Shown here: one piece after another, positions 1 to 22,134 of the stretch
Layout: every line of letters starts with the position of its first letter
Position numbering within the stretch: the first letter of the stretch is position 1
Program-made: the position numbers and the translations under genes
The notes under the pieces: model-generated
Told to the model about the DNA's origin: nothing
Databases searched by the model: none
The model's input: only the letters and a program-made list of their open reading frames with translations
From: Eubacteriales bacterium
GTDB lineage: Bacteria > Bacillota > Clostridia > Lachnospirales > Lachnospiraceae
Length of the DNA stretch: 32,479 nt
NCBI GenBank assembly: GCA_030524225.1
Contig: JAUNGV010000026.1
Span: forward strand, 1 to 32,479
Direction of reading: 5' to 3'

Positions 1-587
1 GGATTGACGCCGCTTTTTGGCGGCTGTTCCTGCGTACTCCCGTCCTTTGTTGCCGCAGGGGGCAGGAAGGAGGCGGGGCCGTAGTAGTCGATCACGGCGC
101 TGACGGCGCTGCTTTCCTCCAAACAGTCTCCGATTTCATACTGCGTCTGTCCGGCGGTGAGAGCGGTCATGGAGGCGAGATGGGCACCGGCGGATTCTCC
201 ACCCACGATCACGCGGCTCTTGTCGATTCCATAGACCTGCGCGTGCGCCCGCAGATAGCGGATCGCCTGTTTGGAATCTTCAAGCTGCGCGGGAAACGGC
301 GCACAGTTGGCGGTTCTGTATTCGATGCTGGCGACCACATATCCTTTTCTGGCAAAATTGGTCAGCCACGGAATGTGCGCGCCCCTTTCCATTGTCTGAT
401 ACGCGCCGCCGCAGATCCAGACGAGAAGCGGGAGCGGAGCGTGATCCGGCCGGAACGGGCAGAGCAGATCGAGCTTTAAATCCTTATACCGGTAGAAGGG
501 AAACCAGTAGGGCGTCTGGGAATAGGTGATTCCCTCGATCAGGGTGACGGGTGTTTCCTTTGTTTCGATGATACATTCTCTTCTCAT
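1..587 (-). CDS. Alpha/beta hydrolase (esterase/lipase family), 5' part only
   Basis: The reading frame opens at an ATG at 587 and runs off the left edge of the window; about 195 residues are visible. It looks like a serine hydrolase of the BD-FAE/carboxylesterase type, cytoplasmic, with no signal peptide. The nucleophile motif GGESAGAH is present with Ser132, inside the usual strand-turn-helix (RVIVGGESAGAHLASM). The oxyanion-hole loop that normally reads HGG reads WICGGAY (residues 57-63), so the His is replaced by Cys. A core strand ending in ASIEYR (86-91) fits the fold. The catalytic Asp and His lie beyond the window. A GGAG site 8 bases upstream supports the start. The gene is preceded by a structured leader repeat at 591-769 that recurs before the Nudix gene at 21700. 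The natural substrate cannot be read from the sequence; deacetylation of a sugar or glycan is possible given the neighbours. Confidence 0.85.
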   Translation of the reverse strand, partial: MRRECIIETKETPVTLIEGITYSQTPYWFPFYRYKDLKLDLLCPFRPDHAPLPLLVWICGGAYQTMERGAHIPWLTNFARKGYVVASIEYRTANCAPFPAQLEDSKQAIRYLRAHAQVYGIDKSRVIVGGESAGAHLASMTALTAGQTQYEIGDCLEESSAVSAVIDYYGPASFLPPAATKDGSTQEQPPKSGVN

Positions 588-590
588 AGC

Positions 591-769
591 TAATCTCCAT
601 TCCGGAGCGATTCTTGCGGCGGGCAATCCTCCCATTGCTGTCACGCTGAAGGCACATTTTCCTGAACTGCGGTCAGGAAGCGTCCTTCGCTGCGCTTGGT
701 CAAGGTCCGATTTGTGTCTGCCATCATCGAGATTTGTGACGCTCCGGAACAAATCTCGGGATTAAAAAT
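591..769 (-). repeat. Structured leader repeat, copy 1 (5' leader of the hydrolase)
   Basis: Read on the minus strand, this 179-bp stretch matches 21532-21696 on the plus strand over most of its length. It contains a hairpin with stem CGAGATTTGT / ACAAATCTCG, a second hairpin TTCCTGA / TCAGGAA, and a 3' end CTCCGGAATGGAGATTA in which CTCC can pair with the Shine-Dalgarno GGAG of the hydrolase. It ends 4 bases before the hydrolase ATG. Short ORFs on both copies translate to similar peptides, but this comes from DNA similarity and I do not believe they are proteins. Confidence 0.75.
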
Positions 770-8440: not shown

Positions 8441-8608
8441 GAACAAATATGACAGTTCAGCCGCGCCATTCGCAAAGTCGCGCTGCCGTTTCACGGCTGC
8501 CTTTGCTCATGAGCTGGCGCTCCCTCAGCCGAAAGCAAGCGGCACAAATTCGTGCAAGCACGATTTGCCTCCTCTTGTATCCGGCTGGCGGAACTGTTAC
8601 GAACAAAT
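8441..8608 (-). mobile_element. MITE-like element A (IS66-type ends) with 8-bp target duplication
   Basis: The element proper is 8449-8600 (152 bp), flanked on both sides by the direct repeat GAACAAAT (8441-8448 and 8601-8608; the next base also matches). Its ends are inverted repeats: ATGACAGTTC at the left, and GTAACAGTTC read inward from the right. It is 80-90% alike by eye to element B at 18299-18462, in opposite orientation. It has no transposase and no credible ORF. Internal stems include CGTGC / GCACG flanked by ATTTG pairing, and GCCGT-GAA-ACGGC. Ends starting GTAA and 8-bp duplications are the known hallmarks of the IS66 family, so a non-autonomous IS66 relative is inferred. Confidence 0.75.
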
Positions 8609-18290: not shown

Positions 18291-18470
18291 TTAGTTGTGT
18301 AACAGTTCAGCCAGCCGTAAGCAGGAGGTGCAAATCGTGCTTGCACGAATTTGTGCCGCTTGCTTACGGCTGAGGGAGCGCCCGATCATGAGCAAAGGTA
18401 GCCGCGAAGCGGCAGAGAGCGCGGCAGCGCGACTTTGCGAATGGCGCAGGCTGAACGGTTACTTAGTTGT
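18291..18470 (+). mobile_element. MITE-like element B (IS66-type ends) with 8-bp target duplication
   Basis: The element proper is 18299-18462 (164 bp), flanked by exact direct repeats TTAGTTGT at 18291-18298 and 18463-18470. Its ends are inverted repeats GTAACAGTTCAGCC and (read inward from the right) GTAACCGTTCAGCC, 13 of 14 identical. Inside are a 12-bp perfect stem CAGCCGTAAGCA / TGCTTACGGCTG enclosing CAAATCGTGC / GCACGAATTTG, and a small stem GCCGC-GAA-GCGGC. There is no transposase. The right copy of the target repeat contains the stop codon of the ABC-F gene. Ends with GTAA and 8-bp duplications are known for IS66-family elements, so a non-autonomous relative is inferred. Confidence 0.82.
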
Positions 18471-21446: not shown

Positions 21447-21531
21447 GCAGCATGGCTTATGGTATTGTGGTAAAAACAGAAAAAATAAAAGCTGAAAAGA
21501 GGACAAAATTGAAAAATAAGCTCGATAGCTT

Positions 21532-21696
21532 ATTTTTCAATCTTGAGATTTGTGCCGGGGCGTCACAAATCTCGATCATGGCAGACGCAAATCTGAAATT
21601 GACCGAGTGCAGTGAGGGATGCTTCTTGAACGTAGTTCAAGAAGATGGGCCTTCGGTGTGACAGCAATGGGGGTAGTCCCTCCGGAATGGAGATTA
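21532..21696 (+). repeat. Structured leader repeat, copy 2 (5' leader of the Nudix gene)
   Basis: Plus-strand counterpart of 591-769. The stem GAGATTTGTG / CACAAATCTC (21545-21573) and the stem CTTCTTGAAC / GTTCAAGAAG (21622-21644) are perfect. In the second, one C-G pair of copy 1 is a T-A pair here. The 3' end CTCCGGAATGGAGATTA carries the GGAG ribosome-binding site of the Nudix gene and a CTCC that could mask it. It ends 3 bases before the Nudix ATG. Confidence 0.75.
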
Positions 21697-21699
21697 ATC

Positions 21700-22134
21700 A
21701 TGACAGAAGTGGTAGCGGCTTTGATTTGGCGTGGGGAGCAATTCCTGATCTGCCAGCGTCCGGCTCATAAAGCAAGAGGTCTGCTGTGGGAATTTGTCGG
21801 CGGGAAGGTGGAGCCCGGTGAGACGAGAGAGGAGGCGCTGATCCGGGAGTGCAGGGAGGAACTGGATATCGGCCTGACAGTCGGAGATGTGTTCATGGAG
21901 GTGGAGCATGTGTATCCGGATCTCACGGTGCACCTGACGCTGTTTCATGCGGAGATCACGGAGGGAGAGCCGCAGAGACTGGAGCACAACGATCTTCGCT
22001 GGATCACGGCAAAGGAGATTGATCAGTACGATTTCTGTCCGGCGGACGAGGAGATACTGGAGAGGCTGAGAAGGGAATATAAACGAGTACAAGGGCGAGC
22101 GTCCCGCTGCCGGTGGGCAGACATATCGGTATAA
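21700..22134 (+). CDS. MutT/Nudix family (d)NTP pyrophosphohydrolase
   Basis: 144-residue cytoplasmic enzyme that should cleave (oxidised or modified) nucleoside triphosphates to monophosphates. The Nudix box is complete at residues 35-57: Gly35, Glu41, Arg49-Glu50, Glu53-Glu54, with Asp56 in the place of the last Gly. The surrounding sequence (FLICQRPAHKARGLLWEFVGGKVEPGE) is typical of the MutT / CTP-pyrophosphohydrolase (NudG-like) group. The ATG at 21700 follows GGAG at 8 bases; an upstream in-frame ATG at 21619 lies inside the leader repeat. It appears to be a single-gene unit followed by the tRNA. Expression may be controlled by the repeated leader. Confidence 0.9.
   Translation: MTEVVAALIWRGEQFLICQRPAHKARGLLWEFVGGKVEPGETREEALIRECREELDIGLTVGDVFMEVEHVYPDLTVHLTLFHAEITEGEPQRLEHNDLRWITAKEIDQYDFCPADEEILERLRREYKRVQGRASRCRWADISV

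Follow-up and report, generated by a model that had tools for sequence, protein, structure and literature searches.

The window, by which we mean the whole stretch of 32,479 nucleotides analysed here, carries two leaders, one before a hydrolase gene and the other before a NUDIX gene (Table 1). An earlier sequence-only reading had reported that these leaders (591-769 and 21532-21696) are similar up to the Shine-Dalgarno (SD) site, and this is borne out, the two copies being homologous and their alignment running through the SD up to the start codon. Because copy 1 lies on the minus strand, the pair was detected as inverted repeats (147 nt at 82% complementary and 27 nt at 85%). Both leaders are thus real at the places given by that reading, which nevertheless left the minus strand of copy 1 unstated and the 5' hairpin of copy 2 (21508-21541) outside its limits. 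The downstream genes are indeed unrelated according to their domain matches (BD-FAE/alpha-beta hydrolase versus NUDIX). The conserved stem GAGATTTGT/ACAAATCTC was found in both copies, and the replacement of a C-G pair by a T-A pair in a second stem (TTCCTGA/TCAGGAA versus TTCTTGA/TCAAGAA) is present as described and recurs in other long copies of the family. The longest frame of the NUDIX gene (21619-22134) opens within the element and so gives a spurious N-terminal extension; similar false extensions are likely in the annotations at other copies.

Table 1. Coordinates of the two leaders, their parts and the genes that follow them
Feature	Position in window	Strand	Remarks
Copy 1 element, long type	595..768	-	Truncated; of hairpin 1 part of the 3' arm is left (760-768)
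Copy 1 hairpin 2	728..758	-	Loop CCGGAGCG at 740-747; pairing counted on the family
Copy 1 extra hairpin of long type, TTCCTGA/TCAGGAA	659..679	-	Sequence; other long copies
Copy 1 pseudoknot strand CGCTCCGG	602..609	-	Exact complement of the hairpin 2 loop
Copy 1 SD GGAG, supplied by the element	595..598	-	Sequence
Hydrolase gene, BD-FAE/Abhydrolase_3	1..587	-	Starts with ATG at 587-585 and extends beyond the contig end; first 150 aa scanned
Copy 2 element, long type, hairpin 1 present	21507..21692	+	Sequence, DNA and model matches
SD-like AGAGGA 5' of copy 2	21498..21503	+	Faces the hairpin 1 TTG at 21509-21511
Copy 2 hairpin 1, ATTGAAAAATAAGC..GCTTATTTTTCAAT	21508..21541	+	Sequence; covariation in the family
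Copy 2 hairpin 2	21545..21573	+	Loop CCGGGGCGT at 21555-21563
Copy 2 pseudoknot strand CTCCGG	21680..21685	+	6 pairs, one of them G-U, with loop CCGGGG
Copy 2 SD GGAG, supplied by the element	21689..21692	+	Sequence
NUDIX gene	21700..22134	+	ATG at 21700; domain match

Other repeats are also present in the window. A further pair lies upstream of two genes, at 18299-18447 (gene on the minus strand) and 8463-8600 (gene on the plus strand), sharing 86 nt at 93% plus stretches of 26 and 30 nt; on the opposite strand it matches the Rfam family Clostridiales-1 weakly (36.3 and 24.1 bits, gathering threshold 48), and a piece of it is nested in one copy of the element (L282). The segment 20192-20345 consists of two direct 75-nt copies, 93% identical, each with a palindromic GC-rich segment.

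Size, architecture and distribution of the family

A covariance model (R1), made with 29 short copies taken from five genomes, yielded at least 145 matches at E up to 1 in the genome from which the window comes (150 of 1850 candidates scored), and a DNA search of this genome yielded 47. The genome holds more than 100 copies of the element, including both of those in the window. We examined 110 of them, comprising the 30 best DNA matches to copy 2 and 80 R1 matches, the rest of the 145 listed R1 matches, mostly weaker, lying outside this set; one copy was dropped for having too little downstream sequence, which left 109 testable copies. Several contigs of the same genome start or stop in or beside an element (L285, L308, L310, L311, L317 and L320), so that assemblies are probably interrupted by the repeat, and the numbers of copies are to be taken as lower bounds. 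Because the copies of this genome had been found partly through their 3' end, the count of gene starts given below was repeated on loci taken with a 21-base pattern of hairpin 2 alone (at least 118 stretches, from which 80 loci of the named collection were taken). Most of these named loci are labelled as Lachnospiraceae or its genera and the others are of Clostridia type, apart from two labelled 'Bacillus sp.' and two plain 'bacterium'. They gave 107 R1 matches, of which 88 were left after removal of 19 overlapping ones (mostly antisense), and 82 after removal of a further 6 with less than 80 nt downstream.

The element measures about 105-200 nt. Short copies (about 131 nt) contain hairpin 1 (GATTGAAAAATAAGC..GCTTATTTTTCAATC), hairpin 2 (CGAGATTTGTG-CCGGAGCGT-CACAAATCTCG), hairpin 3 (GACGCAAAT..ATTTGCGTC), a small hairpin 4 and CGCTCCGGAATGGAG, followed by usually 4-9 nt and the ATG. 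Long copies, including both window copies, have about 60 extra nucleotides where the short ones have the 3' arm of hairpin 3, and several copies are devoid of hairpin 1 or of more 5' sequence. An inner module, AACGCAAAATCAAAGATTTTGCT, recurs between hairpins 2 and 3 in many copies (L277, L278, L281, L289, L317 and L323), and the element is therefore mosaic.

Under the stricter filters used for the surveys of the order and the class, R1 matched 15 of 295 genomes of the order (9 of 130 genera, two families), five of them with at least 11 matches each (11 scored per genome), and 3 of 391 genomes of the class, none of them outside the order; both counts include the source genome. The DNA query matched 10 of 41 relatives, again with the source genome included. 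Variants in other genomes mostly retain the order hairpin 1, hairpin 2, SD and ATG; the SD end is missing from the copies of two genomes (G008 and G010, four displayed from each). These relatives of the element share the first two hairpins, end in GTGCTCCGGCATG and have no SD (L036, L038, L045, L047, L052, L053, L057 and L058), and some of them stand in arrays beginning with GAGTGAAAAA. Neither in the window nor in nine further loci did any covariance model of Rfam release 15 match the element at E up to 1; the earlier reading had likewise been unable to assign the leaders to a known class. A phage or plasmid origin was rejected, since exact pattern matches amounted to 0 in viral contigs and 0 in plasmids, and those in phages were 3 unverified faecal records. 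The record MT838414.1 (L332), filed as Bacteriophage sp. (unverified), contains the element; two of its long frames, which we take to encode a Tex and an MBOAT protein, suggest that this one of the three is probably bacterial DNA.

Fold and pseudoknot

The fold predicted from the alignments comprises three hairpins and a pseudoknot joining the loop of hairpin 2 to the strand before the new SD. On alignment A2, 94.6% of the cells of this structure are paired (86.2 ± 0.5 when shuffled), and 20 of its 42 pairs have changed on both sides. For the pseudoknot itself (CCGGAGCG/CGCTCCGG) the paired fraction on A2 is 97.8%, and only 2 of its 8 pairs show two-sided changes. Of the 88 loops of the named loci, 82 can pair with the 3' segment over 6 or more contiguous positions (8.4 for shuffled loops, maximum 18), and a variant (L182, TCTGAGCGA/TCGCTCAGA) shows three compensated changes. 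When the 206 of 230 sequences in which the loop was located are taken together, 1622 of 1854 positions pair in register and any other register reaches at most 44%; 31 of these 206 have fewer than 7 of 9 pairs, many of them through the loop finder landing on hairpin 1. G-U pairs make up 158 of the 1622, a share that would fit RNA better than single-stranded DNA.

The sequence-only reading had also proposed that a CTCC-GGAAT-GGAG hairpin can hide the SD. Its sequence is present in both window copies and the hairpin can form in 63 of the 88 named copies, yet none of its pairs has changed on both sides on A2, and we therefore rejected it as a conserved switch. Its supposed competitor, an upstream GGGAGG or GGGGG that frees the SD by pairing with CTCC, did not hold, GGGAGG being present in just 4 of 12 long copies; we replaced it by the pseudoknot from the conserved hairpin loop, and in most long copies the segment in question forms the loop of a putative hairpin of the GGCAAT..ATTGCC type. 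The pseudoknot and the SD hairpin share one strand, so that the pseudoknot, once formed, leaves the SD free. The calculated energies of the isolated helices (-16.9 kcal/mol for the pseudoknot duplex versus -3.8 for the SD hairpin) suggest that the pseudoknot would take precedence.

The two ends of the element and the gene starts

Copies lie in sense orientation and carry a GGAG of their own at the 3' end. In 95 of the 109 testable copies of the source genome, an ATG that opens a frame of 50 codons or more follows 3-14 nt past the element (51 at 6 nt and 23 at 7 nt), the chance rate at random positions of the same stretches being 7.3%. Among the named loci such an ATG follows 69 of 82 copies (57 at exactly 6 nt; chance 7.0%), or 71 of 82 if GTG and TTG are allowed (chance 15.2%). 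The check proposed by the earlier reading, namely that matches of a model should end at start codons, thus came out as it had anticipated in both samples. The copies without such an ATG number 14 of 109 in the source genome and 13 of 82 in the named loci (2 of these 13 with GTG or TTG); some abut another element, whose GTG lies near the start-codon position, and a few in the source genome have no gene there. Ten of the 95 downstream proteins were scanned and belong to ten unrelated kinds (NTP transferase, MFS, aldo-keto reductase, Cas5, V-ATPase E, histidine phosphatase, PyrI, IlvD, hydrolase and NUDIX), with no association to one pathway.

The 5' side also lies next to SD-like sequence. Within 13 nt before hairpin 1, an SD-like tetramer is present in 54 of 61 full copies of the source genome and 42 of 50 named ones, compared with 24% and 20% of random windows, respectively; once those copies are excluded whose left flank is itself an element tail, the counts are 34 of 41 and 35 of 43. 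Hairpin 1 in the 111 full copies shows the triplet TTG in 51, GTG in 43, ATG in 6, CTG in 1 and another in 10, a count that is not independent because the copies share ancestry, and the modal spacing from the upstream GGAG to this NTG is 6 nt. A conserved leader peptide starting at this codon was rejected, as the frames differ between copies. Enough sequence for a look upstream was available for 103 full copies. In 71 of them a frame of at least 100 codons reads in the same direction and stops no more than 150 nt before the element, and many copies are therefore probably inside operons.

A second repeat family, made of hairpins followed by GTGCCGCAG..CTGCGGCAAGGAGG, gave 44 DNA matches in the source genome. 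Thirty were fetched (L371-L400) and the tail was located in 28, with an ATG frame 3-6 nt after it in 16 of these 28; several of the other tails run into a first-family element or a further copy of the second family. Tails of this family also occur in L018, L023 and L026, and in its tandem copies the first hairpin opens with ATG right after an SD. More than one sequence in this genome therefore ends at an SD.

Relatives lacking the element at the same genes were found for three genes. The source genome has a full copy before the ATG of metA (151.9 bits with R1), and R1 found the element in none of the metA loci of 29 relatives, the search including the whole of L072 and L087; the best scores, 18.3 and 14.3 bits, fell at some distance from the start. 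The SD left of the metA copy resembles the tail of the second family, so that layering at this place is older than the insertion of the element. A membrane-protein gene, which we take to be DUF4956-like, has a copy at 150.8 bits, and none of 29 relatives' loci (26 genomes) matched R1 at E up to 1; in the 12 of these inspected by eye, an SD-like purine stretch is followed by ATG. The third gene, presumably that of an acetate/butyrate kinase-like protein, has a truncated copy (48.6 bits), and R1 found no element in 14 relatives. GatC was discarded as a further case, the source genome alone having passed the cut-off.

Origin of the element and comparison with known systems

The sequence-only reading had named a plain mobile repeat as an outcome contrary to its own interpretation, and the marks of a dispersed repeat are what was found: more than 100 copies, a patchy distribution and empty sites. 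We consider it rather probable, with some reserve, that the element is a structured repeat, dispersed and probably mobile, which puts its own SD in place of that of the gene it enters. Insertion would occur directly 3' of a standing SD, which would then face the start-like codon of hairpin 1 (TTG, GTG or ATG), and the SD of the element would take over the gene at normal spacing, so that the gene would stay translated. The pseudoknot would occupy the CTCC strand and keep the new SD open; if it were absent, the SD could be masked by the CTCC/GGAG hairpin, which is weak.

A more far-reaching proposal, which we make tentatively and regard as possible more than probable, is that the SD itself is the target of a class of mobile elements. 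These would enter in sense orientation just past the SD and ahead of the start codon, perhaps with the SD or the transcript as a guide, and would bring a new SD with them. The habit would be common to at least two families in one genome, differing in sequence, which would layer one after another at the same gene starts. Selection of the surviving insertions could mimic such targeting.

The element may instead be an ordinary palindromic repeat of the MITE or REP kind inserting nearly at random, with selection keeping the sense copies that lie before start codons with a working SD. Its small size, its palindromic nature, its many copies and its mosaic and 5'-truncated forms are in keeping with this, as are the copies of G008 and G010 that have no SD end. 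A target-site duplication is not robust either: a permutation test was significant over 89 anchored copies, and over the 66 non-tandem ones it gave 86 of 192 against 76.8 expected (p = 0.058), which is why we do not claim a duplication of the SD. At neither end of the element alignment is there an obvious terminal inverted repeat. We nonetheless hold this explanation to be unlikely, because 84-87% of copies lie at exact SD spacing, always in sense there, whereas pneumococcal repeats, as far as the accessible account describes them, are spread loosely in intergenic regions (PMC3049150), and because selection would have to purge nearly all intergenic insertions, which would usually be harmless. 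A Y1 (RAYT) transposase was rejected as the mover: none was found in the source genome (G000, 81% complete) nor in G329, G182 and G290, and in G286, G031 and G093, where it is present, no element occurs in the loci fetched around it.

A translational riboswitch, or another ligand- or protein-sensing RNA governing a regulon, is a good deal less probable. The conserved fold, the pseudoknot adjoining the SD and the possible alternative hairpin argue for it, and of the layout suggested by the earlier reading, the folded leader, the compensatory changes and the ending at an SD have stood. The riboswitch itself has not: the copy number, the unrelated kinds of downstream protein and the relatives without the element at the same genes made us reject a riboswitch or single regulon as the main reading, the patchy distribution and the SD hairpin devoid of two-sided changes speak against it as well, and a riboswitch for one ligand is unlikely. 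Slightly more improbable still is a leader-peptide device in which the standing SD drives translation of a short frame, begun at the codon in hairpin 1, that controls the downstream SD by coupling, since against the NTG of 101 of the 111 full copies and its modal distance from an SD stand frames that differ in phase, in length (from 4 to 370 codons) and in where they stop, and the many copies without hairpin 1.

If the element does exchange the SD of the genes it enters, a small repeat can enter compact operons without breaking them, as it lands at the ribosome site and returns an SD, and about a hundred genes of one bacterium share the same folded leader, and one may ask if such sharing is neutral or amounts to a common layer of translation control. 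Spurious N-terminal extensions in gene calls are explained by the element as well, and its copies offer a natural series of matched leaders in gut Lachnospiraceae for testing structure against SD access.

No description of the element was recognised in the literature searched, which covered titles and the openings of abstracts, with subscription papers and supplements outside it. Translational riboswitches have a pseudoknot adjoining the SD and an alternative anti-SD pairing. The element resembles them in its SD-adjacent pseudoknot and differs in its copy number and its unrelated genes, with no sign of one ligand. Comparisons with repeats rest on the accessible parts of the papers cited. The BOX, RUP and SPRITE repeats of Streptococcus pneumoniae are, like the element, small, modular, folded and present in many copies; they lie upstream of or between genes, enriched between convergent genes, and are co-transcribed, some BOX copies containing short frames (PMC3049150). 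In the available account an SD end before a start codon is not described for them (PMC3049150), and we set them apart by such descriptions and not by the boxA, boxB and boxC sequences. Rickettsia palindromic elements are likewise about 150 bp long, occur in many copies and leave the host gene usable, in their case in frame; as described, they enter reading frames (PMC10969869), whereas the element separates the SD from the start codon and supplies a substitute for that SD. REPs associated with a RAYT/Y1 transposase (GTAG/CGTC-tagged) are also palindromic units of high copy number and patchy occurrence (PMC3733652), yet they are given there as 20-40 bp, shorter than the element, and no such transposase was found in the source genome or in three other copy-bearing genomes. 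MRSC-65-2 is likewise a structured motif with many copies per genome, but is presented as a single long stem (PMC11109978), the element consisting of several hairpins. In the same account (PMC11109978), inconsistent orientation marks candidate motifs that are mobile or repeat sequences, whereas the element has a fixed place and orientation. As judged from these published descriptions, the place between SD and start codon and the apparent replacement SD make the element unusual among small interspersed elements.
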